DNA of 64,000 nt, from the NCBI RefSeq assembly GCF_003675855.1, contig NZ_RCIH01000005.1, positions 124,001 through 188,000 on the forward strand. The letters run 5' to 3'. Of this stretch, positions 3,004-22,378 are shown in pieces (position 1 is the stretch's first letter; the number at the start of each line of letters is the position of its first letter). Position numbers and translations under genes: made by a program. Origin of the DNA: Halostella salina (lineage in GTDB: Archaea > Halobacteriota > Halobacteria > Halobacteriales > Natronoarchaeaceae). A model generated the notes under the pieces. The model ran no database searches, was not told where the DNA came from, and saw nothing but the letters and a program-made list of their open reading frames with translations.

Positions 3004-3597
3004 ATGCCGGTCATCGAGTGTGACGTGGCGGCCGCGCGGGAAAAACTGCTCGACGCGGGTGCCGACGTCGAGGCGGGAAACACCGATCACGAGCGCTGGC
3101 GGGCCTCTCGCGGCGATGCGACGGCGGTCGCGTACGACGAGAAGGTCGTCGTGCAGGGGTCTGAGCCGAGCGACATCGAGGCGGTGCTGCGCGAGGGCGG
3201 CGGTCGCGCGCACCTGTACTCGGACGGTGCGAGCCGCGGGAACCCCGGACCGGCCGCGGTGGGGTGGGTCATCGTCACGAGCGACGGTATCGTCGCGGAG
3301 GGGAGCGAGCGGATCGGCGAGACGACGAACAACCGCGCGGAGTACGAGGGACTGATCCGCGCGCTGGAGGCGGCCCGGGACTACGGGTACGACGTAGTCG
3401 ACGTGCGTATCGACGCCGAACTCGTCGTCAAGCAGGTCCGCGGCGAGTGGGACACGAACGACCCCGACCTCCGCGAGCGCCGGGTGACCGTCCGGGAACT
3501 GCTTGCCGGCTTCGACGACTGGTCGCTCCAGCACGTTCCGCGGGAGGTAAACGAGCGGGCCGACGAACTGGCCAACGAGGCGCTCGACGATGCCTGA
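3004..3597 (+). CDS. rnhA: Ribonuclease HI
   Basis: 197 residues. Cleaves the RNA strand of RNA-DNA hybrids. The C-terminal RNase H domain (from about residue 70) shows the four acidic catalytic positions: Asp in YSDGASRGNPGP, Glu in NNRAEYEGL, Asp in VRIDAELVVKQ and the final Asp in NERADELANEAL. The approximately 65-residue N-terminal domain is the haloarchaeal extension seen in the Halobacterium type 1 enzyme, the first archaeal RNase HI described. The reading frame extends further upstream, but the TATA box at 2973-2980 points to the ATG at 3004. Its last codons overlap the next gene (8 nt). Confidence 0.95.
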   Translation: MPVIECDVAAAREKLLDAGADVEAGNTDHERWRASRGDATAVAYDEKVVVQGSEPSDIEAVLREGGGRAHLYSDGASRGNPGPAAVGWVIVTSDGIVAEGSERIGETTNNRAEYEGLIRALEAARDYGYDVVDVRIDAELVVKQVRGEWDTNDPDLRERRVTVRELLAGFDDWSLQHVPREVNERADELANEALDDA

Positions 3598-8973: not shown

Positions 8974-10380
8974 CTAGCGCGGCTCGGCCGCCTGCGCCCG
9001 GGCGAACTCCGCGTTGAGGTGGTCGATCGCCGCCCACCGGTCCCCGTCGGGCACGAACACGAACGGGATCGCGTTCTCGAAGGCCCTGTCCCCGTACAGT
9101 CCCGTCTCCGCGACCGACCGGGTCGAGTCACGGTGGGCGATCGGGATGTCCATCAGTTCGCCAGGCTCGTACTCGGGCACGTACGACCGCTCGATCCACA
9201 CCTCGTGTTCCGGCCTGTCGAGCGTCGCGGCGAGGTCGGCTTCGAGCGCGTCGGCGTTGCGGAGCAGCCACTCGGAGAACGCCGCCATGTCGTCGGTGAC
9301 GTCGACCGACTCGTCGTAGCCGACGCCGTGTTTCCAGCACGACTCCGGGAACCGCCGGGCGCGAAAGCGGTCGTGGAGGTCGGCGAGGACGGAGTCGGGA
9401 TGCTCGCGGGCGGCCGCCCGGATCCGCTCCATCGCGTAGTAGTCGTCGACGTACCCCTCCAGCACCTTGTCGGCCGTGATGGGGCGCTCGTCCGCAAGCT
9501 CGACGAACTCGTCCAGCAGTTCCCGGAGCAGGACGTTCGCGTACACCGCCTTGTGGTGCTGGGTGACCCACATGTACAGCGCCACCCGGCCTTCGAGGTA
9601 GTTGCCGACGGTCGACAGCGCCTTGTCCCGAAGCGCCAGCCCGGCGTCCGGCACGGCGGTGTAGGCGTCTATCATGCGCTCGGTGTCGATGCTCAACACC
9701 TCCGCGCCGGTCATCCGGCTGTCGCGGATGATGTAGTCCAGTCGGTCCACGTCGATCGGCGAGTGGAGCACCTCGGCCGCGACGCCGAAGTGGCGGTCGC
9801 CCTCGCGCTCGTAGCTCAGACTGTAGCCGAGAATGTAGCTACAGACCTCGTACGGATCGACGCCGAGAGCACGGAGGGCGTCGGCGTACTTCGTCAGGAC
9901 GACGACGCAACTGAGCAGTTCATGCGGGCTGGCGCGGCGAAACGGACCGTCGGGCTCCCCGACTTCGATGCCGGCGTCCTCGAACGCGCCGACCAGGCCG
10001 GCGTCGGCGAGCCGCTCGCGGAGTCCGGCGGCGTCGAGGTGGTGCTCGCCGAGATGCGACAGCGGCGGATGGCCGATGTCGTGCAGCAGCGCCGCGCACG
10101 TGAGCGTGTCCTCGACGGCGTCGAGGTGATCCTCGGACGCGCCGCGAGCGAACCGGCGCTGCGACCGGAGGCTCCGGAAGACGCGCTTTGCCAGCGCGAA
10201 CACGCCCAGCGCGTGCTCGAACCGGGTGTGGTTCGCGCCCGGATACACCAGATACGTCGCCGACAGCTGGCGGACGTGGCGCTGCCGCTGGAACGACGGC
10301 GTGTCGACGATGCGTTCGACTATCGGTTCGGCGACCTCGACGTACCCGTGTACCGGGTCCTTGAACTGTTTGCTCGACAT
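8974..10380 (-). CDS. HD superfamily phosphohydrolase (SAMHD1/dGTPase-like)
   Basis: 468 residues. Starts FKDPVHGYVEVAEP, the hallmark of the COG1078 HD family, followed by NHTRFEHALGVF and the metal-binding HD motif ALLHDIGHPPLSHLGEHH (about residues 103-120). The later DYIIRDSRMTG is the conserved Asp region of the same family. Related enzymes hydrolyse dNTPs (dGTPase, SAMHD1), so a nucleotide-pool role is plausible but unproven. Convergent with the preceding phosphodiesterase-like gene, stops 6 bases apart. Unusually for a haloarchaeal gene, a Shine-Dalgarno-like GGAGGTG sits 5 nt before the ATG. Confidence 0.88.
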   Translation of the reverse strand: MSSKQFKDPVHGYVEVAEPIVERIVDTPSFQRQRHVRQLSATYLVYPGANHTRFEHALGVFALAKRVFRSLRSQRRFARGASEDHLDAVEDTLTCAALLHDIGHPPLSHLGEHHLDAAGLRERLADAGLVGAFEDAGIEVGEPDGPFRRASPHELLSCVVVLTKYADALRALGVDPYEVCSYILGYSLSYEREGDRHFGVAAEVLHSPIDVDRLDYIIRDSRMTGAEVLSIDTERMIDAYTAVPDAGLALRDKALSTVGNYLEGRVALYMWVTQHHKAVYANVLLRELLDEFVELADERPITADKVLEGYVDDYYAMERIRAAAREHPDSVLADLHDRFRARRFPESCWKHGVGYDESVDVTDDMAAFSEWLLRNADALEADLAATLDRPEHEVWIERSYVPEYEPGELMDIPIAHRDSTRSVAETGLYGDRAFENAIPFVFVPDGDRWAAIDHLNAEFARAQAAEPR

Positions 10381-10484: not shown

Positions 10485-11561
10485 TCAGAACAGGTCGTCT
10501 ATCTCGTCGTTCTTGAACTGCTCGGCGGGGTCGCCGTCGTCGGGCTGTTGCTTCTGTGCCTCGCGGGCGCGCTCCATGAACTCCTCGATGCGCTGGCCGC
10601 GCTCGACGCCGCCCAGCAGGACCAGCGCGGCGAGATGGTCGCTCTCGAGCGGGAAGTCGCCGCCGCGGACCTGCATACTGCCGGTCTCCTCCTCGACCCA
10701 GGCGCGGGCGCGTTCGACGCCCTTGCGTGGGATGCGGTCCGAGTCGCCGGCGATAACGAGCAGCGCGGACTCGGCCGTCACCGCGTCCGGGAGGCTCGTC
10801 CCCGTCAGCAGCGCCTTGCGCGTGACGCTCGTGACGGTGTTGACGTTCTCCGCGCTGTCCTCGTCCGCCTTCGCGTTCGCGTAGCCGAGCGCGGCGATGC
10901 CGCCCTCGCGGAGCGTGTTGATGACCTCGCTGGAGTCGACGACGCTCTCGGCGACCCCGTCGACGGCCTCGCCGGAGGCGAGCAGGAGGCCGACGCGCTG
11001 TGCGATCGCCTCGTTGATCGCGTCGAACGCCTGCTCGACGCTGTCGCCCGCGCTGTGCCAGGCGTCGTTGTCGACAAGCAGGGTCGCGTCGGCCTCGCGG
11101 ACGAGCGTCTTCAGCGATCGCCCGGCGTTGGCCTGGTACATCGCCCCCTCGCCGCGCCCGGGGAGGACGCCGAGCGCGTAGATGGGGACGCTGTACACGC
11201 GACTCAGTTCCTTTGCGAGCACGGGCGCGCCGCCGCTGCCGGTGCCGCCGCCGAGGCCGGCAACGACGAAGATGGCGTCTGCCTCGGCGGTGATGCGGCC
11301 GTCGATGCTGTCCATCACCTCGGTCGCGTCGGCCTGCATCACCTCCGCGCCCAGTTCGTTGTCGCCGCCGACGCCGTGGCCTTTCACGCGGTCCTGTCCG
11401 ACGAGCACGGTGTCAAGATCCAGCGACTGGAGGTCCGTCTTCGCGGAGTTGACCGCGACCGCGCCGCGAACCGCATCGAAGCCCATGCGTTCGTCGAACT
11501 CGACCAGCGCCTGGGTGACCTTCCCCCCGGCCTGGCCGATACCTATCAGGACGACTTTCAT
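10485..11561 (-). CDS. cetZ: CetZ family tubulin-like protein
   Basis: 358 residues. Starts MKVVLIGIGQAGGKV, the CetZ form of the FtsZ/tubulin nucleotide-binding start, and contains the tubulin signature GLGGGTGSGGAPVLAKEL (about residues 105-122) plus RVKGHGVGGDNELGAEV, diagnostic of CetZ rather than FtsZ. The T7 region VDNDAWHSAGDS is also of CetZ type. It ends in an acidic tail (NDEIDDLF) after a Gln/Asp-rich linker. CetZ1 of Haloferax controls rod shape and motility; other CetZ paralogues are poorly understood. Which paralogue this is cannot be told here. It lies head to head with the secretion/pilus-like cluster. Confidence 0.93.
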   Translation of the reverse strand: MKVVLIGIGQAGGKVTQALVEFDERMGFDAVRGAVAVNSAKTDLQSLDLDTVLVGQDRVKGHGVGGDNELGAEVMQADATEVMDSIDGRITAEADAIFVVAGLGGGTGSGGAPVLAKELSRVYSVPIYALGVLPGRGEGAMYQANAGRSLKTLVREADATLLVDNDAWHSAGDSVEQAFDAINEAIAQRVGLLLASGEAVDGVAESVVDSSEVINTLREGGIAALGYANAKADEDSAENVNTVTSVTRKALLTGTSLPDAVTAESALLVIAGDSDRIPRKGVERARAWVEEETGSMQVRGGDFPLESDHLAALVLLGGVERGQRIEEFMERAREAQKQQPDDGDPAEQFKNDEIDDLF

Positions 11562-11666: not shown

Positions 11667-12182
11667 ATGGACGACATCGAGAAGCGACTCGCCGCCGTCG
11701 AACGGGCGCTGACGGAGGCCGACGCCGACCTCCCCTCGCTCGCGGACGACGCCGAACTGACGCGCCGCATGGACGAACTCGAACGCGAACTCGACGCGAT
11801 AGACGAACGGATCGAGGAGCTAGACGCCGCACTGCAGGCGGTTCGGGGGTACGTCGGCAGCGTCCGCTCGGTCAACGAGGACGTGGAGGCCCGCGCGAAC
11901 GCGGCCGTGGCCGGCGTCGAATCGCTCGAGGACCGCGTCGACACCCTCGAGGCTGGACACGACGGGCAGACCACCGGCGGGTCCGGATGGACCGACGAAC
12001 CGTCCGCCCCGTCTGCCGGGGCGACCGAGTCCGATAGGGCGCGCCCGGACGGGACCGTACCCGACTCGACAACTACCACGAACGACGCGACTGCGGCCGC
12101 AAGCGAGGCGACCGCATCCACCGACAGCGCGACCGACACAGACGACACGGGCGTCGTCGCCCGCCTCCGCGACGCGCTGTGA
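11667..12182 (+). CDS. Coiled-coil protein of the pilus-like cluster (DUF7310-like)
   Basis: 171 residues. Residues 1-95 form a heptad-patterned coiled coil (MDDIEKRLAAVERAL and RRMDELERELDAIDERIEEL), followed by a roughly 60-residue Thr/Ala/Asp-rich low-complexity linker and a short amphipathic end (TGVVARLRDAL). No signal peptide or membrane helix. The stop codon overlaps the GTG start of the next gene, so it belongs to the ATPase operon. Coiled-coil proteins at this position are conserved in haloarchaeal PilB/PilC-like loci (recalled as DUF7310). A scaffold or regulator of the ATPase is my inference. Confidence 0.75.
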   Translation: MDDIEKRLAAVERALTEADADLPSLADDAELTRRMDELERELDAIDERIEELDAALQAVRGYVGSVRSVNEDVEARANAAVAGVESLEDRVDTLEAGHDGQTTGGSGWTDEPSAPSAGATESDRARPDGTVPDSTTTTNDATAAASEATASTDSATDTDDTGVVARLRDAL

Positions 12183-12640
12183 TCGTCCGCGTCGTCATCG
12201 CGGTCCTGCTCGCCGGGGCGCTGGTCGCGGTTTCGCTCCCCCTGGTCGACGACGGCCGGGGGCGCGCGACCGACCGACAGGTCCGCGGCGAGATAACCCG
12301 GGTCGAGCGCGCCGCGGCGGACCTGCTCGCGACCGAGGAGACGGTGGCGGACCGCTCGCGTGCGCCGCGGCGGACCGTCACGGTGTCGCTCCCGGAGCGA
12401 AGCTGGCACCGTGCGGGGGTCGAGCAACTGACCGTCCGACCGCCCCCGGACGGCGCGTCGACGGGACGGATACGGTACGCGGTCGCCGGGCGGCCGGAAG
12501 CGGTCGCGACGCTCGACGTGCCGCTCCGGCCGGCGGACGATTCTCTCGAACTCCGGGGGAGCGGCGAGTACCGGCTCCGACTGCGGCTGGTCCGGGTCGA
12601 CGGCGACCGGACCGTCGTCGTCGACCGTCCGGGGGTTTAG
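12179..12640 (+). CDS. Single-pass membrane protein of the pilus-like cluster (DUF7311-like)
   Basis: 153 residues, GTG start within GTGA overlapping the previous stop. One N-terminal hydrophobic segment (VVIAVLLAGALVAVSLPLV, residues 5-23) anchors a beta-rich Arg/Val/Asp outer domain. The topology, a short cytoplasmic end followed by an anchor, resembles T4P minor subunits, but there is no clear prepilin peptidase motif. Function unknown beyond its fixed position between the coiled-coil protein and the ATPase. Confidence 0.72.
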   Translation: MIVRVVIAVLLAGALVAVSLPLVDDGRGRATDRQVRGEITRVERAAADLLATEETVADRSRAPRRTVTVSLPERSWHRAGVEQLTVRPPPDGASTGRIRYAVAGRPEAVATLDVPLRPADDSLELRGSGEYRLRLRLVRVDGDRTVVVDRPGV

Positions 12641-12666
12641 GTAGGAGGCCGCGGCGACCCCGGCGC

Positions 12667-14556
12667 ATGCGAGGTATCTTCGACCGCTTCCGGGCGGACG
12701 ACGAGCGCCCCTGCGGCTGTCGGCCGTCGTTCGAGGACGACCGGCTGGTCGTCGACGCCGACGGCTGTCCCGGCGACGGGCGGCTCGCGGACGAGCCCGA
12801 CTGCCGCGAAACCGTCGTGACCGCGCTGACCGACCGGGACGCCGAAACAGTCCTCACGCGAAACCGGGGCGTCGAACGGACGTACGAGGACGAGGCCGCG
12901 GCGCTGCTGGTCGCTGCCGGGCGGTTCGCCGAGCGCGTCGCGTTCCGCGACGGGACGCTCGCCGAGCAGGTGCGGCCGGACCCCCTCCGAACTGCCCGCG
13001 ACGCCGGCGCGCGGGCCAGCCCCGTGAGTGACATCGCGGCTGAAACCGGCCTGCTCGAACTGGCCGAATCCGTCGACGGGTACGAGGACGCGCTCCGCCC
13101 GGCGGTCGGCGTCGCGATCGCCGGCTCCCGCGTCCGGTCCCGACCGCCCTCGGACGCGCGGCTCGACGACGTGTCCGACCTCGACACCGGCTCGACCGCC
13201 CGGATCTACGCGCGGCCGGCCGACGCCCTCCGAACGTACCACCTCGTGCCCGTCGAGGAGGACCTCTCCCCCGACGCGACGGGGACGCTGGTCGACGCAC
13301 ACGAGGCGCTGGCGACCGGGGCAGTCGAGGGCGGCGACCGCGCGCCGGGGCGCGCGGTCAGGCGCGTCGCGGAAGAGGACGACCCCGTCCGGCGGCTCAC
13401 TGACGTGCTCCGGAAGCACGCCCGTGGCTTCGGAGTCTTGGAGGACTGTTTCGCGGACCCGCGCGTCTCCGACGTGTACGCGACCGCACCGGTGACGGCG
13501 AACCCGCTCCGCGTCGTGGTCGACGGCGAGACGATGCGGACGAACGTCCGGCTCACCGAGGACGGCGTCGCGGCGCTTGCCTCCCGGTTCCGGCGAACGA
13601 GCGGTCGCGGGTTCTCCCGGGCCGAGCCGACGCTGGACGCGGCGGCGGAGACGGCGACGGGTGGCCGGATCCGCGTCGCCGGCGTCACCGACCCCGTCAG
13701 CGACGGCGTCGCCTTCGCGTTCCGTGCGGGGGGCGAGGACGCGTTCACGCTGCCGGCGCTGGTGGCAAACGGGACGCTCCCGGCGGACGCCGCCGGGTTG
13801 CTCTCGCTGGCCGTCGAGCGCGGCGCGTCGGTGCTCGTCGCCGGCGCTCGCGGGGCCGGGAAGACGACGACGCTCGGCGCGCTCCTCTGGGAGTACCCGG
13901 CCCAGACCCGGATCGTCGCCATCGAGGACACGCCCGAACTCCCGACGGCCGCGCTCTGCTCTGCCGGACGCGACGTGCAGCCAGTCCGGACGACGCTGGA
14001 CGACGGACCGGGGATCACGCCGACCGAGGCGCTCCGGACTGCGCTGCGCCTGGGCGAGGGCGGTCTCGTCCTCGGGGAGGTCCGCGGCGAGGAGGCGCAG
14101 GTGCTGTACGAGGCGATGCGGGTCGGCGCGAACGGGAGCGCCGTGCTCGGGACGATCCACGGCGACGGCGGCGAGAGCGTCCGGGAGCGCGTCGTCTCGG
14201 ACCTGAGCGTCCCCGAATCGGCCTTCGCGACGACGGACCTGGTGGTCACGCTCGACGCGTACGAGCGGGATGGCGACCGGGCGCGCCGCGTCAGTGCGAT
14301 CGAGGAGGTCGTCGACCGGGACGGCGGCGCGGGGTTCGACGCGCTGTACGCGCTCGACGGCGATGACCCGGCCCGGACCGGCCGGATCGACCGCGGCGAG
14401 AGTCATCTGGTCGCGGAACTCGCCGACGCGGGCGAGACGTACGCCGACGTTCGCGACCGGCTCGCAACCCGAACCGAGTTGCTCGCTGGACTCGCCGCGG
14501 ACGAACGGACGCGTCCGGAAGACGTGACGCGAGCGTACGCGGTGGAGAAATGCTGA
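12667..14556 (+). CDS. PilB/TadA-type secretion ATPase
   Basis: 629 residues. The C-terminal motor domain has Walker A GARGAGKTTT (Lys near residue 399), an Asp-box-like AIEDTPEL, a Walker B region LVLGEVRGEEAQ (about 467-478) and a His box in LGTIHGDGG (His about 498), all diverged from the canonical TadA/PilB motifs but recognisable. The N-terminal region carries four cysteines (16, 18, 34, 46) that may bind zinc. It would power assembly of a type IV-pilus-like or secretion machine with the TadC-like protein encoded next, whose ATG overlaps its stop. Haloarchaea have several such PilB/PilC pairs; this is not the archaellum FlaI. Confidence 0.9.
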   Translation: MRGIFDRFRADDERPCGCRPSFEDDRLVVDADGCPGDGRLADEPDCRETVVTALTDRDAETVLTRNRGVERTYEDEAAALLVAAGRFAERVAFRDGTLAEQVRPDPLRTARDAGARASPVSDIAAETGLLELAESVDGYEDALRPAVGVAIAGSRVRSRPPSDARLDDVSDLDTGSTARIYARPADALRTYHLVPVEEDLSPDATGTLVDAHEALATGAVEGGDRAPGRAVRRVAEEDDPVRRLTDVLRKHARGFGVLEDCFADPRVSDVYATAPVTANPLRVVVDGETMRTNVRLTEDGVAALASRFRRTSGRGFSRAEPTLDAAAETATGGRIRVAGVTDPVSDGVAFAFRAGGEDAFTLPALVANGTLPADAAGLLSLAVERGASVLVAGARGAGKTTTLGALLWEYPAQTRIVAIEDTPELPTAALCSAGRDVQPVRTTLDDGPGITPTEALRTALRLGEGGLVLGEVRGEEAQVLYEAMRVGANGSAVLGTIHGDGGESVRERVVSDLSVPESAFATTDLVVTLDAYERDGDRARRVSAIEEVVDRDGGAGFDALYALDGDDPARTGRIDRGESHLVAELADAGETYADVRDRLATRTELLAGLAADERTRPEDVTRAYAVEKC

Positions 14557-16247
14557 CGGGGCTGTGCCGCGCGCTCGCTCGCCTGTCGCCCGCCGACCCG
14601 TCCCCGAGCGAGGAACTCCGGCGCTCGCTCGGCTTTCTCGACGCGGACGTGTCGGCCGAAACCGTCGTCGACGCGGGCTACGGCGCGGCGTTGGTCGTCG
14701 CAGCGGTCGGCGTCGTCGCCGCGGCGTTCGTCCCGGAATCCCTGTTTCCGGCGGTCGCGGTCTGCACGCTCGCGTTCGCCCTCGGAACCGCCCACGCGGT
14801 CCACCGCGGGCCGGTCGTCGCGGCCGCGGCGCGACGGACGGCGGCGCTCGGCGATGCCCCGGGGATCGTCGGCCGGGCCGTGTTGCGGATGCGGATCACG
14901 CCCGCCGCGGAGACTGCGACGGCCTTCGCCGCGCGGACCGGCCGCGGGCCGCTGGCGCGGAGCCTCCGCGACCACGTCCGCGCCGCCGAGGGGACGCCGA
15001 GAACGGGACTGGCCGGCTTCGCCGACGAGTGGGACGAGTGGTTCCCCGCGCTGGCGCGGTCGACCCACCTGCTGCTGGCGGCCGCGGCCGCCCCGGCTGG
15101 CGAGCGGTCACGGACGCTGGACCGCGCGCTGACGGCTGTCCTCGACGGGACGCGCGACCGGATGGCCGCGTTCGCCAGCGACGTGCGTGCGCCGGCCACC
15201 GCGCTGTACGCGTTCGGCGTCCTCCTCCCGCTCTCGCTGGTCGCCGCGGTGCCCGCCGCGAGCGTCGCTGGGCTGCCGGTCACCCTCCCGCTGTTCGCGT
15301 TCGTGTACGACTGCCTGCTGCCGGTCGGGCTCCTCGGCGTCAGCGGCTGGCTGCTGCTCCGCCGGCCGGTCGCGTTCCCGCCGCCGGTCGTCTCGCGGTC
15401 GCATCCGGACGTTCCCACCCGTCGGTGGCCGCCGCTTGCCGCCGGCGGCGGGGCCGGCGTGCTCACGGCGGTTGCGAGCGTCGCGCTGCTACCCGGCTGG
15501 ACTGCCCCCGTCGCTGGGGTCGGCGTTGGCGTCGGGGTCACACTCGTCGCGTGGTACCAGCCGATCGTCGCCGTGAGGGAGCACGTCCGGGCCGTCGAGG
15601 CCGGACTGGTCGACGCGCTCTACCTCGTCGGGCGACGCGTCGCGGAGGGCGCGGCCGCCGAGTCGGCGGTTGCCCGGGCGAGCGAGGAGGTCGGCGGCGA
15701 GATGGGCGACGTGCTCGCCGGCGCGACCCGCCGCCAGCGACAGTTAGGCGTCGGCGTTCGAGAGTCGTTCCTCGGTGAGTACGGCGCGCTGGCTGACGTG
15801 CCGAGCCCCCGCGTCCGGAGCGCCGCCGCGTTGCTCGCGCTGGCCGCGAGCGAAGGGAAGCCCGCAGGGAGCGCGGTCGTCGCCACCGCGGACCACGTCG
15901 AGGAGCTGCGGACGGTCGAGCGGGAGGCACGGCACGACCTCTCGCGTGTCACCGGGACGCTCGGCCACACTGCCGCCCTCTTCGGCCCGCTCGTCGCGGG
16001 CGTCACCGTGGCGCTCGCCGGGGGAATCGGCGGCACGGAGTTCGGCGAGCCGGCGCTCCCGCCGGCAGGCCTCGGGGTCGCCGTCGGCGCGTACGTGCTC
16101 CTGCTCGCCGCGATCCTCTCGGCGCTCGGGGCGGGACTCGAAGCCGGGCTCGACCGGCCGCTGGTCGGCTACCGCGTCGGACTGGCGCTCTGTGCCGCGA
16201 CGCCGACGTTCCTCGGCGCGTTCGCCGTCGCCCGGCTGCTGGTCTGA
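14550..16247 (+). CDS. PilC/TadC-type membrane platform protein (T2SF domain)
   Basis: 565 residues, overlapping the ATPase gene by 7 nt. Hydrophobic segments cluster in two blocks (about residues 45-85, 210-270 and again 300-330, 470-560), framing cytoplasmic four-helix regions such as LVDALYLVGRRVAEGAAAESAVARA, which resembles the T2SF domain. A duplicated architecture is usual for archaeal TadC/FlaJ-like proteins. It should be the inner-membrane platform on which the preceding ATPase acts. Ala/Gly/Val-rich composition makes exact helix counts uncertain. Confidence 0.85.
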   Translation: MLTGLCRALARLSPADPSPSEELRRSLGFLDADVSAETVVDAGYGAALVVAAVGVVAAAFVPESLFPAVAVCTLAFALGTAHAVHRGPVVAAAARRTAALGDAPGIVGRAVLRMRITPAAETATAFAARTGRGPLARSLRDHVRAAEGTPRTGLAGFADEWDEWFPALARSTHLLLAAAAAPAGERSRTLDRALTAVLDGTRDRMAAFASDVRAPATALYAFGVLLPLSLVAAVPAASVAGLPVTLPLFAFVYDCLLPVGLLGVSGWLLLRRPVAFPPPVVSRSHPDVPTRRWPPLAAGGGAGVLTAVASVALLPGWTAPVAGVGVGVGVTLVAWYQPIVAVREHVRAVEAGLVDALYLVGRRVAEGAAAESAVARASEEVGGEMGDVLAGATRRQRQLGVGVRESFLGEYGALADVPSPRVRSAAALLALAASEGKPAGSAVVATADHVEELRTVEREARHDLSRVTGTLGHTAALFGPLVAGVTVALAGGIGGTEFGEPALPPAGLGVAVGAYVLLLAAILSALGAGLEAGLDRPLVGYRVGLALCAATPTFLGAFAVARLLV

Positions 16248-16248
16248 A

Positions 16249-16256
16249 GGTTTAAG
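16249..16256 (+). promoter_or_regulatory. Internal TATA box within the pilus-like cluster
   Basis: GGTTTAAG centred 29 nt before the ATG at 16282 and directly after the stop of the TadC-like gene. It suggests that the pilin-like genes can be transcribed separately from the ATPase/platform genes. Confidence 0.55.
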
Positions 16257-16281
16257 TCCGGAAACGCGGCGAACCCTGGCC

Positions 16282-16752
16282 ATGTTCGACGCGCCAGTAG
16301 ACGCGTGGTATCTCACCGTCGGCGTCGCGCTGGCCGGCATGGCGTTCGCCGGCGTCGCCGCCGACCTCCCGACGCGTGCGCCGCCCGACGCGACCGCCGC
16401 CGCGGAGACGGTCGACGCCGTCGCGGCGAGCGAGTTCGCGGCGACAGCCGAGCAGCCCGTCTCGGCCGACGCGGTCAGGCTCGGCCCCCACCGGATCGCC
16501 CTCCGGAACGCCGGCGGCACCGGCCGCGCGACGTTCACGTACGGTCCCGTGACGCCGGTCGCCGACGGAACGCTCCTGTGGGAGGTCGCGCAGGGGGCCG
16601 ACCCCGAACACGTATTCGAGTCGCCGGCCGACTTCGCTGCGGCGGCGACCGACGCGCGGGACCGCGACCCCGACTGGCACAGTGCGGACGACCGGATCGT
16701 CGTCAGAACGGTCTCCTGGGGTGAGAAGCGTGTCACGCTGGTCGACGCGTAG
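16282..16752 (+). CDS. Exported or anchored small protein of the pilus-like cluster (DUF7283-like)
   Basis: 156 residues. An N-terminal hydrophobic segment (WYLTVGVALAGMAFAGVAADL, about residues 10-29, quoted in part) is followed by an outside domain predicted to be beta-rich (VRLGPHRIALRNAGGTGRAT). The start fits a leaderless transcript from the TATA box at 16249-16256. Overlaps the next gene by about 20 nt. No known enzymatic motif; its place in the cluster suggests a pseudopilin or assembly factor. The DUF number is from memory. Confidence 0.72.
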   Translation: MFDAPVDAWYLTVGVALAGMAFAGVAADLPTRAPPDATAAAETVDAVAASEFAATAEQPVSADAVRLGPHRIALRNAGGTGRATFTYGPVTPVADGTLLWEVAQGADPEHVFESPADFAAAATDARDRDPDWHSADDRIVVRTVSWGEKRVTLVDA

Positions 16753-17119
16753 GGGACAGACCGAACCCATCGCCGCGCTCGCGGCGGTGCTCGCGGTCGG
16801 TGCTGGTCTCGCGCTGTACGCCGGGCTGGTCGACACGACGCTGGCTGGCGGCAGCGCTCGGGACGCGACGCCGGCGCTCCGCCGGGTCTGGCGCGCCGTC
16901 GCGGAGACCGGCGTCGTCTCGCCCGCCGACCTCGCGGCCGGTCTCGACACGGCACCCGACGGGCACGAGGTCCGGATCACCCTCTCCGCGGCCGGGGAGA
17001 CGTGGACTGCAGGTCCCGCCGCCCCGGCCGACGCGGCGTCGGCGTCCCGGACGGCGAGCGTCCGGGTCGACCCGGGGACGGTATGTGTCGGCCGCCTGCG
17101 CGTGGAGGTGTGGGCGTGA
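16730..17119 (+). CDS. Pilin-like small protein of the pilus-like cluster
   Basis: About 129 residues from GTG 16730 (an alternative GTG lies at 16721). The N-terminus SRWSTRRGQTEPIAALAA is a charged stretch ending Arg-Gly directly before an uncharged hydrophobic segment (IAALAAVLAVGAGLALYAGL), with Glu at +3 of the presumed cleavage after Gly. This resembles archaeal prepilin peptidase (PibD) substrates. The remainder is a short soluble domain with a single late Cys. It overlaps the preceding gene by 23 nt and the next by 4 nt (GTGA), so translation is probably coupled. Confidence 0.7.
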   Translation: MSRWSTRRGQTEPIAALAAVLAVGAGLALYAGLVDTTLAGGSARDATPALRRVWRAVAETGVVSPADLAAGLDTAPDGHEVRITLSAAGETWTAGPAAPADAASASRTASVRVDPGTVCVGRLRVEVWA

Positions 17120-17952
17120 CCGACCGCGCCGTCAGCACCGTGGTCGACGCCGCGCTGTGCCTGCTGCTCGTCACCGGCGCGGTCGCCACGCTCGCCTACG
17201 TGCCGTCCGACCCGGACCCGACCCGCGCGACCGCGGCCGACGAGACGGCCGACGCGCTCGGCGCGAGCACGGCAAGAGTCAACTACACGCTCGCCGTCGA
17301 CGGGAACGAACTTGACCGGTCCGCGCAGGGCACGCTCGCCGAACTGCTCGCGGACGCCGCCGTCGCGAACGCCACCGTCAGAGGACGACCGATTTCGCCC
17401 GCCAGCGACCGGTACGTCGACCGCGCCACGGCCGTCGTTGCGGACGCCGTCGACCGGCCGAACGCGTCGGTCGCGGTGCGTGCGGTCTGGATACCGTACC
17501 CCGGATCGCCGGTCCGCGGCGAGGTGACGGCCGGCGACCCGCCGCCACGAGGAGCCGACGTGCACGTCGCCACGCTGACGGTCCCGAGCGGCGGCCCGAC
17601 CGTGACGACGCCTGCTGGTGACCGGGCCGGCTACCGGGCCGTCGCCCGGCGGACCGCCCGCAGCGTCGTCCGAACGCTGTTTCCACCCGCGGAGACGGCG
17701 CTGACGCTCGCCGACCCCGCGACGCGACCGCTCGCGGTCACCCGGTACGACCGGTTCGCTGCGGCGGTGGGGACGGAGGCCGATCCCGGACCGAGTGGGT
17801 CGGACGTGGGGCGGGCGAACGGCCGGCTCGCGGACGCGCTGACCGAGTCCGCGGCCGACGAGTTCGCCGGGTCGTTCGAGTCGCCACACGCAGCCGCGGC
17901 CGCCGCGTCGCCGGGGGAAGTTCGGATCGTCGTGGAGGTGTGGGAGCGATGA
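17116..17952 (+). CDS. Pilin-like protein of the pilus-like cluster (DUF7285-like)
   Basis: 278 residues from the GTG overlapping the preceding stop. The N-terminus MTDRAVSTVVDAALCLLLV closely matches haloarchaeal pilin starts (Arg-Ala/Gly followed by Val-Ser and a hydrophobic helix), so processing after Ala is plausible. The remaining approximately 240 residues form an outside domain rich in Ala, Thr, Asp and Arg with Asn-x-Thr/Ser sites (NYT, NAT, NAS) that could be N-glycosylated. Its stop overlaps the start of the 1019-residue gene (ATGA). Confidence 0.72.
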   Translation: MTDRAVSTVVDAALCLLLVTGAVATLAYVPSDPDPTRATAADETADALGASTARVNYTLAVDGNELDRSAQGTLAELLADAAVANATVRGRPISPASDRYVDRATAVVADAVDRPNASVAVRAVWIPYPGSPVRGEVTAGDPPPRGADVHVATLTVPSGGPTVTTPAGDRAGYRAVARRTARSVVRTLFPPAETALTLADPATRPLAVTRYDRFAAAVGTEADPGPSGSDVGRANGRLADALTESAADEFAGSFESPHAAAAAASPGEVRIVVEVWER

Positions 17953-20900
17953 GGCTGGCCGACGACCGCCGGGCACGCGTTCCCTTCGCCCTCGTCGGCG
18001 TTCTCCTGCTCGTGGGCAGCGCCACGCTGGGGGTGAGCCTGATCGACGACCGGAACGGGACGCCGGAGGTCGACGCGGCGGCCGCAGTCGACCGCGCCGA
18101 CGCCGCGGTCCAGACGACCGTCCGGGGCGCGGTCGCCGACGCGAGCAGGCGAGCCGCGGCCGCACCCGTCATCGAACCGGCGAACACCACCTACGGCCGG
18201 GCGATCAACGACTCGTCGCCGTTCCGCGACGCGCTCCGGGTCCGGATCTATCTCGCGGTGCAGTCCCGGCTCGGTGCCGTCGACGAACGCGTCCGGACCG
18301 CCCGGGCGACCGCCTCGTTGCCGCCCGTGACGAACGCGTCCGACCTCCGGGCGGCCAAGCGTCGCGTCGCCGTCGAGCGCACCGGCGAGGGCCAACTCGC
18401 GGTCGCGGTGCGAAACGTCTCGTTCGTCGCGGAGCGCGACGACCGAACGGTGCTGCGGGACGAGCGCACGGTCAACGTCACCGTCCCGACGCCGGTGCTG
18501 CTGCTCCACGACCGCGTCCGGACGTACGAGGGGCGACTGAACCGCGGGGGGCTCGACGGCACCGGCTTCGGCCGGCGCGTCACGGCGCGGCTGTACGCGA
18601 TGACCTGGGCGCGCGGCTACGCGCAGTACGGCGGCGCGCCGATCGCAAACGTCGTCGGGAACCGCCACGTCGAACTGGCGGCCAACGGCGCAGCGCTGGA
18701 GACCCAGCGCGCCGTCTTCGGCCGCGCTGACCCGGGCGGCCGCCTTGCGCTCGCCAAGGGGACGGCCCGCGTCGGGATCACCGACGTACTGGCCGGCAGG
18801 GGACTCGGCGGCGAGGCGTGGGTCAACTACGTCCTCGGGGAGGGGGATCCGCCCCGCGGCGCGATCGCCGGCCTCGGGAACGCGAGCGCCGGGGTGTCGC
18901 CCGGAAAGACGACCACCGTGGCGGTGAACCACACCGCCGACGCGGCGGCGTACGACCTGCTGACCGGAGCCGACGGGGCGAGCCTCGACGAGGTCATCGA
19001 CGAGACGTACGAGACCGAGGTCCGGCTGATCTCCGACGTTCGGACCGTGCCCCCCGAGGTTCGCCCGCGCACGGAGCCGGACGGCGGCAACTGGACGCTG
19101 AACGACACCACGCGAGAGACGCACGTCTCGGTCGGCGACGGTCGCGCGCCGCTCCCGGCGGTTCCCGGCGGCTTCCACGAACTGCGATCGTACAGGCGCG
19201 TCGTCGAGGAGCGGACGGTCGCCCACCGCGAGTGGGTCAGGGGCAACGAGACCAGAACGACGGTCGACCGGTGGACGACCCGACACCGGGTCGGTCTCCG
19301 GATCGTCGGCACCCACGCCGCCGGCGAGCGCGTCCCGAACCACGCGGTCGACGGCGTTCACTCCGAGGGCGGCGCGCTCGACGGGCGGAACCTCCGGGGC
19401 ATCGAACGCCGCGCGGCGAAGCGACTCGTCGTACACCGCGGCGGCGCGAACGACCTGGCGCGCGCAGCGGCGACCGGCGACGACCCGGACGCGACCGCGA
19501 CGATCGAGGGGCAGCAACCGGACCGGGTGGAGCGCTGGGTCTACGCCGACGTGGCAGCACTCCGCGACCGCGTCCGAACGATCTCGGTCACGGTACAGCG
19601 GGCCGAACTCGCGACCGGGAGCAACCCGCCGGCCGAACTCGCGGCGAAGCTCCGGTCCCGGCGGGCGGACCTCGTCGACGCCCCGGCGCAGTACGACGGC
19701 GTCGCGGACCGTGCCCGCGTCGCCGCTCGCGCCGCCTACGTCGACCGGACGATCCGCCTGCTGGAGCGACAGGCCGCCGCGGTCGACGAGACGCAGGCGG
19801 CGCTGAACGACGCACTGGGCGACCTCGATGCGGTCGCTGGTGACCGGCTTCAGGAGCTGATCGAAGTCGGGCAGGCGGTCGACCAGCCGGGGCGACACGT
19901 CGTCGACACCGACGCCGGCCCGACGACCCTCCGTGTCGACGGTGCGCCCGCGTACCTCACTACGGCGTCGGTCGACCACGAGCGAGTCCCGGCGGTGGCC
20001 GAGGGAGAGACGTACCACCCGCTGGTCGCGCGAAACAGGAACATCGTCACCGTACCGTACGGCGATGCCGCCGAGCAGATCGTCGGCAAGTTCGCCGACG
20101 ACACGACCCGCGTCGACCTGCAGACTGCGGCGAAGACGCTCCGGGCGGCCAACAGCGCGCTCGCCGCGGTCGACGACGAGGGGCTGGCCGACGGTCGCGA
20201 CAATCTCCGGGGTGCCGTGCGGTCGGGGGTCCGCGAAGCGACCGACGAGACGGCGGCCGAACTGGCCGACGCGACGGAGCTGACCCCGGGAGAGAGTCGT
20301 GCCGTCGTCACGGCCGGTCTCGCGAGGTGGGACTCGCCCGCGGCCCGCGCGCTGGCGCTGGCGAACGGCTCGGCCGCCGCGCCGATCGCCGACGCCGCGA
20401 TGCGGCGAGCCGACACGCCGGGCGCGGCGGCCTGGCGGGACAGAGTTCGGACGCGACTGCGCGTCGCGACGACCGAAGCGATGGCGGACAGTTCGATCCG
20501 CCTCCCGGAGGGTCCGGTCCGGACCGTCGCTGACGAACTCCGTGCGGTCGCGCGAACCCGGCTGGAAGGCAGGGTCGAGGACGGGCTCCGGAACGCCGGG
20601 GACCGCGTCTCGAAGCGGCTTGCTGGAACGCGGACCGCCGTCCCCGCCGGCGTGCCGGTGACGCCGGTACCGGGGTACTGGTACGCGACGGCAAACGCCT
20701 GGGAGATCGACATCGGCGGGCAGTACGCCCGCTTTACCGTCCGGGCCGGCCGTGAGTCGCCGGCGACGCCGGGCGGGTCCATCGCGTACTCGCGGGACGG
20801 CTCGCCCGTCTCGCTCGACGTTGACGACGACGGCGAACGCGAGCGGCTCGGCCGGTCGACACGCGTGTCGTTCGAGGCGTCGACGACGGTGCTCATCGTC

Positions 20901-21008
20901 GTCCCGCCGGGCAAGAGCGGGGTCGGCGACGTGGACGGGCAGCGGACGGAGGAGTCCCCAGGCTGGCCGGACGCCGGCCCCGGGGATCTGAAGCCACTTG
21001 TACGGTGA
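17949..21008 (+). CDS. Giant exported protein of the pilus-like cluster (DUF7286-like)
   Basis: 1019 residues. A basic N-terminus (RLADDRRARVPF) precedes one hydrophobic helix (ALVGVLLLVGSATLGVSL), then nearly 1000 residues of outside domain with many Asn-x-Ser/Thr sequons (NTT, NDS, NVT, NHT, NWT) and Arg/Asp/Ala-rich helical stretches. No catalytic motif is recognised. Near the C-terminus is a distinct Tyr/Trp-rich segment (VPGYWYATANAWEIDIGGQY) followed by Asp-rich sequence. It may be the major external component, adhesin or assembly scaffold of the machine; that is inference. Start chosen by the ATGA overlap with the previous gene. Confidence 0.8.
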   Translation: MRLADDRRARVPFALVGVLLLVGSATLGVSLIDDRNGTPEVDAAAAVDRADAAVQTTVRGAVADASRRAAAAPVIEPANTTYGRAINDSSPFRDALRVRIYLAVQSRLGAVDERVRTARATASLPPVTNASDLRAAKRRVAVERTGEGQLAVAVRNVSFVAERDDRTVLRDERTVNVTVPTPVLLLHDRVRTYEGRLNRGGLDGTGFGRRVTARLYAMTWARGYAQYGGAPIANVVGNRHVELAANGAALETQRAVFGRADPGGRLALAKGTARVGITDVLAGRGLGGEAWVNYVLGEGDPPRGAIAGLGNASAGVSPGKTTTVAVNHTADAAAYDLLTGADGASLDEVIDETYETEVRLISDVRTVPPEVRPRTEPDGGNWTLNDTTRETHVSVGDGRAPLPAVPGGFHELRSYRRVVEERTVAHREWVRGNETRTTVDRWTTRHRVGLRIVGTHAAGERVPNHAVDGVHSEGGALDGRNLRGIERRAAKRLVVHRGGANDLARAAATGDDPDATATIEGQQPDRVERWVYADVAALRDRVRTISVTVQRAELATGSNPPAELAAKLRSRRADLVDAPAQYDGVADRARVAARAAYVDRTIRLLERQAAAVDETQAALNDALGDLDAVAGDRLQELIEVGQAVDQPGRHVVDTDAGPTTLRVDGAPAYLTTASVDHERVPAVAEGETYHPLVARNRNIVTVPYGDAAEQIVGKFADDTTRVDLQTAAKTLRAANSALAAVDDEGLADGRDNLRGAVRSGVREATDETAAELADATELTPGESRAVVTAGLARWDSPAARALALANGSAAAPIADAAMRRADTPGAAAWRDRVRTRLRVATTEAMADSSIRLPEGPVRTVADELRAVARTRLEGRVEDGLRNAGDRVSKRLAGTRTAVPAGVPVTPVPGYWYATANAWEIDIGGQYARFTVRAGRESPATPGGSIAYSRDGSPVSLDVDDDGERERLGRSTRVSFEASTTVLIVVPPGKSGVGDVDGQRTEESPGWPDAGPGDLKPLVR

Positions 21009-21024
21009 TCCCGTACGGGAAGCC

Positions 21025-21453
21025 ATGTTTCACGAACATCGGACGGACGTCGACGGGCTGTCGCCCGGCGACCTGCGGGCGGAGTACGACGCTGACCTCG
21101 CGGCCGCCGCCGAGCACGCGGGCGTAGAGACCGCCGCCGAGGCGGCTGACGTCGACCCGTCGACTGTCGAGGCGCTGATAGCCGGCGACTCGCCGGACCT
21201 CACGCTGGAGGCCGCCGCGGCCATTCAGACGCTCGACCCGGACGCGCCCAGCGCGGACACGCTCGTCGAGATGGCCTGCGAGCACCTCCTGCTCGGGATG
21301 ACGACGGGCGTGATGGACGTCGACGCGGTCGCCCGGGAACTGGCGATCGATCTGGACCCCAAGGAGGTCCAGCAGAAGATAGAGCGGCGCGCGCCGATGA
21401 CGTTCGACGAGTTCGTCCACGTCCAACACGCCATCGCCGGGCGGCAGCCGTGA
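21025..21453 (+). CDS. DUF5791-like conserved haloarchaeal protein
   Basis: 142 residues, acidic and mostly alpha-helical, no membrane segment. The pattern GLSPGDLRAEYDADLAAAAE, then VDPSTVEALIAGDSPDLTLE, resembles a helix-turn-helix-like module, and matches what I recall of DUF5791. Function unknown. It starts 16 nt after the giant exported protein, so read-through from that operon is possible, though nothing links it to the machine. An in-frame ATG at 20998 lies inside the upstream gene and is not preferred. Confidence 0.8.
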   Translation: MFHEHRTDVDGLSPGDLRAEYDADLAAAAEHAGVETAAEAADVDPSTVEALIAGDSPDLTLEAAAAIQTLDPDAPSADTLVEMACEHLLLGMTTGVMDVDAVARELAIDLDPKEVQQKIERRAPMTFDEFVHVQHAIAGRQP

Positions 21454-21484
21454 GACCTACGTGTCGGCGGCCGAAGGTGGCGAC

Positions 21485-22378
21485 ATGAACGTCGCTATCC
21501 TCGGCTGTGGCTACGTCGGGCTGGAGCTGGGCCGACAGCTACGCGACGCCGGCCACGATGTCGTCGGCGTCCGGCGGTCGGACGACGGGATCGCCGCCGT
21601 CGACGACGCCGGCCTGACCGCGGTGCAGGCGGACGTGACCGACCGCGAATCGCTGGCGGCCGTCGCGGACGCGGACGCGCTGGTGTTCGCCGCAAGTTCG
21701 GGCGGGCGCGGTGCGGACGCCGCCCGGCGCGTGTACGTCGACGGGCTTCGGACGGTTATCGCCGCGTTCGGCGAGCGCGCCTCGCCGCCGGACCGGCTGG
21801 TGTACACGTCCAGCACGGGCGTGTACGGCGACCACGGCGGCGACTGGGTCGACGAGACGACGCCGCTGGAGCCGACGACCGAGAAGACGCGGGTACTCGC
21901 CGAGGCGGAGCGCGTCGCGCGGGAGGAGGCGGCCGGGTACGGCATCGACGGCACCGTCGCACGGTTCGCGGGGCTGTACGGGCCCGACAGGTACCGGCTC
22001 CGGCGGTACGTCGAGGGGCCGGTGACGGAAGGGTACCTGAACATGGTCCATCGGGACGACGCCGCCGGGGCGGTGCGGTACCTGCTGGAGACGGACCGGG
22101 CCCGCGACGACGCGGTGCTCGTCGTCGACGACGAGCCGGTTTCGAAGTGGGCGTTCGCCGACTGGCTGGCCGAGCAGTGCGGCGTGGAGCCACCCGAGAA
22201 ACGGACGAAAGCGGAGCGCCTCGCCGACGGCGACCTCTCCGCGGCCGCGAAGCGACGGATCCAGACGAGCAAGCGCTGTTCGAACGACCGGCTCCGGGAG
22301 ATGGGCTACGCGTTCGCGTATCCGACGTACCGCGAGGGGTACCGCGACGCGGTCGCTGCGTACCGGGCCGAACCGTAG
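21485..22378 (+). CDS. NAD(P)-dependent SDR-family epimerase/reductase (YeeZ-like)
   Basis: 297 residues. Rossmann motif MNVAILGCGYVGLELGRQL at the N-terminus, an extended-SDR active-site region VYTSSTGVYGDHGG (Ser and Tyr around residues 115-122) and a conserved RFAGLYGPDRY. This set is typical of the NAD-dependent epimerase/dehydratase group that includes YeeZ. Substrate not predictable. Start chosen at the ATG 5' to the glycine-rich loop; upstream in-frame codons add only eight residues. Confidence 0.88.
   Translation: MNVAILGCGYVGLELGRQLRDAGHDVVGVRRSDDGIAAVDDAGLTAVQADVTDRESLAAVADADALVFAASSGGRGADAARRVYVDGLRTVIAAFGERASPPDRLVYTSSTGVYGDHGGDWVDETTPLEPTTEKTRVLAEAERVAREEAAGYGIDGTVARFAGLYGPDRYRLRRYVEGPVTEGYLNMVHRDDAAGAVRYLLETDRARDDAVLVVDDEPVSKWAFADWLAEQCGVEPPEKRTKAERLADGDLSAAAKRRIQTSKRCSNDRLREMGYAFAYPTYREGYRDAVAAYRAEP

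Follow-up and report, generated by a model that had tools for sequence, protein, structure and literature searches.

An eight-gene haloarchaeal locus predicted to encode a PilB2/PilC2-type type IV pilus system

A type IV pilus (T4P) system of haloarchaea has been catalogued from sequence in two papers, and its product is apparently unobserved. Brown and Duggin (2023, PMC9856176) described a pilB2/C2 type IV pili regulon that cetZ2 adjoins in most Haloferacales and Halobacteriales, named Haloferax volcanii DS2 among the pili-associated examples, and listed a regulator-like gene (arCOG04674), an epimerase (arCOG03095), a phosphodiesterase, and an exopolyphosphatase-related protein near it. Makarova et al. 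(2016, PMC4858521) described halobacterial T4P of subclade 4F as having a Cys-rich ATPase N terminus, a coiled-coil component, an ftsZ-like gene in the context, and methanogen relatives, and suggested stand-alone PilA-family genes for it. Here we analyze a cluster of eight plus-strand genes at positions 11667 to 21008 of a 64,000-nucleotide stretch of Halostella salina DNA (the window; contig NZ_RCIH01000005.1, positions 124,001 to 188,000). We consider it probable that the cluster is a haloarchaeal T4P assembly locus of the PilB2/PilC2 type (Makarova subclade 4F), working by the mechanism proposed below. A first-pass annotation had put it forward as an undescribed system; that claim falls, as the locus corresponds to the pilB2/C2 regulon and fits subclade 4F.

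This correspondence is one of gene content and synteny, with the published locus traced through its CetZ neighbor. As in the regulon of Brown and Duggin, the order cetZ, pilB/C, regulator-like gene, epimerase appears in the window and in most of the 80 named loci compared, and genes of the DHH family (exopolyphosphatase-like) and for a phosphodiesterase also lie around the cluster in the window. As in subclade 4F, the ATPase carries a Cys-rich N-terminal extension and an ftsZ-like gene of the CetZ kind is in the context. The cluster opens with a coiled-coil protein (PF23991), DUF7310, which we infer to be, probably, the arCOG07564-type subunit of the 4F system. One published placement conflicts with the 4F assignment: Legerme and Pohlschroder (2019) put H. 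volcanii PilB2 in 4C. A literature search for the DUF names returned nothing.

The layout of a second described locus, pil-2 of Halobacterium salinarum, suggests that it is probably the same locus as the cluster. Pil-2 (OE1347R-OE1332R) is haloarchaea restricted and co-transcribed, comprises a PilB of arCOG01818, a PilC, and four further genes, and is reported as 6.9 kb from pilB2 (PMC4292770). It carries an in-frame stop in pilC2 of strain R1 and an insertion in pilB2 of NRC-1 and 63-R2, damage that fits the fragments of the cluster found in other genomes (see below). The PilB3-C3 and PilB1-C1 adhesion pili of H. volcanii have a motor and platform of the same kind as the cluster, and PilB3-C3 has no linked pilin genes (Legerme and Pohlschroder 2019). 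Published primers imply that PilB1 starts with MPTQG and that PilC1 ends with GVGLI (HVO_0620-0619); the Haloferax gibbonsii and H. prahovense orthologues of the cluster have other ends, and we rejected identity with PilB1-C1. Our search found no report of a mutant or filament of the PilB2-C2 locus, the experiments that it did find concerning PilB3-C3, PilB1-C1, and H. salinarum pil-1. The first-pass annotation had allowed that the cluster might prove orthologous to a characterized Haloferax adhesion locus, which is not what we find, and its statement that no product is known agrees with the literature.

Within the cluster, five of seven junctions overlap, by 4 to 23 nucleotides (nt), which bears out the tight packing first annotated at these positions. 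The DUF7310 gene (11667-12182; PF23991, E = 7.5e-29), for a cytosolic coiled-coil protein of 171 residues, overlaps by 4 nt the gene for DUF7311 (12179-12640; PF23993, 2.3e-44), a membrane-anchored protein of 153 residues with a pilin-like shape. After a gap of 26 nt comes a 629-residue secretion ATPase of the PilB/VirB11 family (12667-14556), overlapping by 7 nt the gene for a 565-residue membrane platform of the TadC/T2SF type (14550-16247). A gap of 34 nt leads to DUF7283 (16282-16752; PF23954, 1.3e-52), a 156-residue protein with an N-terminal anchor lacking a prepilin-type motif. The last three genes each overlap the one before, by 23, 4, and 4 nt: DUF7285, 129 residues and class III prepilin-like (16730-17119; PF23956, 1.9e-31); DUF7284, 278 residues, with a GTG start at 17116 and a pilin-like N terminus (17116-17952; PF23955, 3.3e-75); and DUF7286, a large pilin-like protein (17949-21008; PF23957, E = 0 over 1000 positions). 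A 19-residue hydropathy scan finds a single N-terminal hydrophobic segment in five of the proteins, eight segments in the platform, and none in the coiled-coil protein or the ATPase. Neither archaellum genes nor a PilA-type gene turned up within the cluster, in keeping with the first-pass annotation.

Homology identifies the ATPase and TadC pair as motor and platform, as first annotated. The ATPase matches T2SSE (PF00437, 1.1e-16), and its best profile match in the PDB is AfGspE (2oap, 2e-37), ahead of CpaF (5e-32) and FlaI (2e-24). Aligning 17 orthologues showed conserved Walker motifs (GARGAGKTT type and GEVRGEEA) and, in the Cys-rich N terminus, an invariant C18 and nearly invariant C16, C34, and C46. 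The window platform itself matches no Pfam family; T2SSF is matched by 13 of 32 platform orthologues, at best with 5.9e-7. Two more specific assignments of the ATPase were rejected. It scores 103.4 bits against the archaellum motor ArlI/FlaI (NF058587, equivalog cutoff 550), the cluster having no archaellum genes, and 121.8 bits against the Tad family conjugal-transfer-associated ATPase (TIGR03819, curated cutoff 373).

The last three proteins of the cluster have pilin-like N termini. In DUF7285 a leader ending in RRG is followed by QTEP and then a hydrophobic helix, and 104 of 114 orthologues carry a FlaFind-like class III prepilin motif; its PDB profile search gave only a weak pilin match (9jrv, E = 0.022). 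The corresponding region of DUF7284 reads DRA, then VSTVVDAALCLLLV. DUF7286 is 1019 residues long if translation begins at ATG 17949, and its N terminus (RRARVPFALVGVLLLV) resembles a type IV pilin-type anchor; in 115 of 120 DUF7286 proteins the N terminus reads R[AG]R[VI]PF[AV] and then enters a hydrophobic helix. With that start the length first annotated for this protein stands; its annotated export is putative. The AlphaFold2 model of DUF7286 (mean predicted local distance difference test score [pLDDT], 83) has no PDB match in Foldseek at E <= 0.001. Neither Foldseek nor VIA gave a credible match to the whole protein; where parts of pantothenate synthetase or SecB aligned (Z 5 to 6), the scores lie within the tool's stated noise, and we discounted them.

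The two other anchored proteins differ from this trio. Only 3 of 109 DUF7283 proteins have a prepilin-type motif. DUF7311 is modeled (mean pLDDT, 93.5) as a long N-terminal helix of 51 residues (2 to 52) plus a beta domain; Foldseek found nothing for this protein. PDB sequence-profile searches gave nothing significant for DUF7283, DUF7286, or the platform. A distant relative matches ArlG weakly, through the N-terminal helix only (0.0034), which prompted an ArlG-like reading of DUF7311 that we did not adopt. The locus of that relative (L168) lies outside haloarchaea, and its DUF7311-like gene (L168:13576-14094; Pfam 1e-5, 26.6 bits against a cutoff of 27) is about 2.6 kb from an orthologous ATPase gene.

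The cluster is inherited all or none. Among 145 haloarchaeal species, each represented by one genome, DUF7286 is present in 110, DUF7283 and DUF7311 in 106 each, DUF7284 in 105, and an orthologous ATPase (E <= 1e-60) in 104. Every one of the 104 genomes with the ATPase encodes DUF7286, DUF7283, and DUF7311 too, and DUF7284 accompanies them in 103, being undetectable in G010 alone; the small proteins thus do travel with the ATPase. A Fisher test of co-occurrence gives 9e-28 but ignores relatedness, so it is the pattern that carries the argument. Six further genomes encode DUF7286 but no orthologous ATPase: four (G012, G055, G066, and G124) hold fragments only, one (G120) has the cluster split over contig ends, and one (G044) keeps DUF7284 and DUF7286 with the motor absent. 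This co-occurrence agrees with the earlier proposal that DUF families conserved in haloarchaea make up a distinct envelope machine, equipped with pilin-like subunits of its own.

Gene order is conserved as well, as had been anticipated. The exact eight-gene order occurs in 69 of the 80 named loci, the remainder reflecting truncation at contig ends or local rearrangement, and a second set of loci (40 plus the window) keeps it in 31 of 41; some loci of this set, several of them from one family (f4), have the ATPase-platform pair in inverted orientation or at another site. Orthologous ATPases occur in 8 of the 10 haloarchaeal families sampled. Two haloarchaeal genomes showed additional copies. 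One (G057) carries two complete eight-gene clusters about 197 kb apart (L041 and L042), the second with a divergent, partly matching DUF7286, and another (G076) has a DUF7286 C-terminal fragment downstream of a complete operon (L058:13630-13899).

From these features we propose the following mechanism, in which assembly by an ATPase and platform follows what is established for systems that build type IV filaments. A putative prepilin peptidase encoded elsewhere would first remove class III leaders from DUF7285 and DUF7284, and probably from DUF7286 as well. The ATPase would then drive the TadC platform to draw the trimmed pilin-like proteins out of the membrane, and their N-terminal helices would pack together to give a filament or a short pseudopilus. 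DUF7285, DUF7284, and DUF7286 may be assembled jointly as a minor or tip set, in which DUF7286 would be the large protein on display, a minor or tip subunit. DUF7311 and DUF7283 would serve as accessory subunits anchored in the membrane. The coiled-coil protein may act in the cytosol as a regulator or as an adaptor, perhaps one that connects to CetZ.

Several observations weigh against this reading. An R-[AG]-[IVM]-S-T type motif is present in just 51 of 119 DUF7284 orthologues, a count that depends on the starts chosen. None of 120 DUF7286 proteins passes the FlaFind-like rule, and the +1 residue of the putative cleavage site is arginine, outside the usual archaeal prepilin motif. The best VIA match of DUF7311 is full-length PAK pilin (1oqw), and it is weak (Z 3.9, 3.2 Å over 100 residues). 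No obvious abundant major pilin is seen in the cluster, the genome not having been searched for stand-alone PilA-family genes, and our literature search turned up no data from filaments, mutants, or proteomes on this particular locus.

Relatives outside Halobacteria indicate how the locus may have arisen. A profile search found ATPase orthologues in six such genomes, all from the same phylum, with scores of 375 to 434 bits against no more than 149 bits for paralogues. In two genomes (G161 and G152) DUF7285, DUF7284, and DUF7286 lie together while the ATPase-platform pair is elsewhere, suggesting that the locus is made of two older modules joined in haloarchaea; the trio fits a pilin-set module and the pair a motor module. 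Directly upstream of the trio in G161 are two further genes with prepilin-like N termini (L163:6576-7578) and no Pfam or NCBIfam match. Brown and Duggin read the cetZ2-linked pilus regulon as a possible mobile element and a recent acquisition (PMC9856176). By contrast, the spread over 8 of 10 families together with the relatives outside the class leads us to favor an old system with repeated loss and relocation.

In these methanogen-like genomes DUF7286 has a regular partner. The gene commonly found directly 3' of DUF7286 encodes a sarcinarray family MAST-domain protein (TIGR04209). Outside haloarchaea, sarcinarray is present in 26 of the 29 genomes that encode DUF7286; in the haloarchaea of the same sample (G000 to G042) none was found. 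Methanogen-like genomes also contain orphan copies of the DUF7286 C terminus, each followed by a sarcinarray gene (L166:13965-18080 and L167:519-3798; also L177, L178, and L180). In G341, two such copies share one start point within the full DUF7286 gene, at about nt 3223 of 4116, and in 60-bp windows identity is 80 to 98% for about 600 bp and then 54 to 80% over the last 200 to 270 bp. Similar arrays occur in G250 and G305. These copies look like exchangeable tip cassettes, the exchange itself being putative. A tentative extension, to which we give a low probability, is that the machine, instead of being a usual adhesive pilus, serves for display or secretion, with the large DUF7286 protein as its working end. 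Methanogen-like relatives would store the DUF7286 C terminus as an array of orphan cassettes, each accompanied by a gene for a sarcinarray surface protein, and swap tip and partner by recombination; haloarchaea would have a single invariable version connected to the CetZ cytoskeleton.

The partner gene bears also on a secretion alternative to pilus assembly. Here the product would be a pseudopilus like that of type II secretion, a short, non-exposed piston pushing specific proteins through the S-layer, with DUF7286 as a GspK-like large minor pseudopilin or a cargo adaptor. The three pilin-like proteins of rising size, together with the lack of an obvious major pilin, would suit such a piston, and the top PDB profile match of the ATPase is to a type II secretion ATPase, although homology of the ATPase cannot tell secretion from pilus assembly. 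The secreted sarcinarray protein would be a candidate cargo in the methanogen-like relatives, but its gene was not found in the haloarchaea sampled, and the haloarchaeal cluster has no dedicated cargo gene. To our knowledge, archaea of this group have neither an outer membrane nor a secretin, which counts further against secretion. We regard this explanation as unlikely.

The neighboring genes raise a second alternative, that the cluster builds a CetZ-scaffolded envelope structure, an accessory to cell shape or motility that is linked to the CetZ cytoskeleton, rather than an adhesive pilus. In the window, a gene for CetZ, of the tubulin superfamily, lies divergently beside the cluster (10485-11561, minus strand; CetZ_C, PF21011, 2.3e-66). 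CetZ is found at 55 of the 80 named loci and is divergent in 54 of those, and a scaffold role of CetZ for type IV systems has been proposed (PMC9856176). At the other 25 loci, Haloarcula species included, no CetZ match was seen, some of these stretches ending early; genomic coupling is therefore not obligatory, and we hold such a structure to be unlikely. On the downstream side are plus-strand genes for DUF5791 (20998-21453, probable start ATG 21025; PF19104, 5.7e-49) and an NAD-dependent epimerase (21461-22378; PF01370, 7.6e-17), present at 72 and 73 of the 80 loci, respectively, in the positions that arCOG04674 and arCOG03095 occupy in the published pilB2/C2 region. Next to cetZ, a minus-strand gene (8974-10380) encodes an HD-domain protein with weak dGTPase-family matches, which is near the cluster in 1 of the 80 loci.

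A degenerate or inactive pilus remnant held by linkage would fit the four genomes with fragments and the disrupted pil-2 of the three H. salinarum strains, but it is very improbable given eight intact frames and conserved Walker motifs and cysteines in the window and most relatives, and all-or-none loss across the 145 genomes.

The cluster thus encodes a genuine machine of a familiar type, a predicted T4P system. New here are the trio kept apart from its motor outside the class, the sarcinarray link, and the orphan DUF7286 C-terminal arrays. About 70% of the sampled haloarchaeal genomes, as well as the model organism H. volcanii, carry this machine, for which we found no report of a product. 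Its all-or-none inheritance, the occurrence of the trio beyond the class, and the sarcinarray link offer handles on what the PilB2/C2 pilus is for and on whether CetZ takes part in its assembly.

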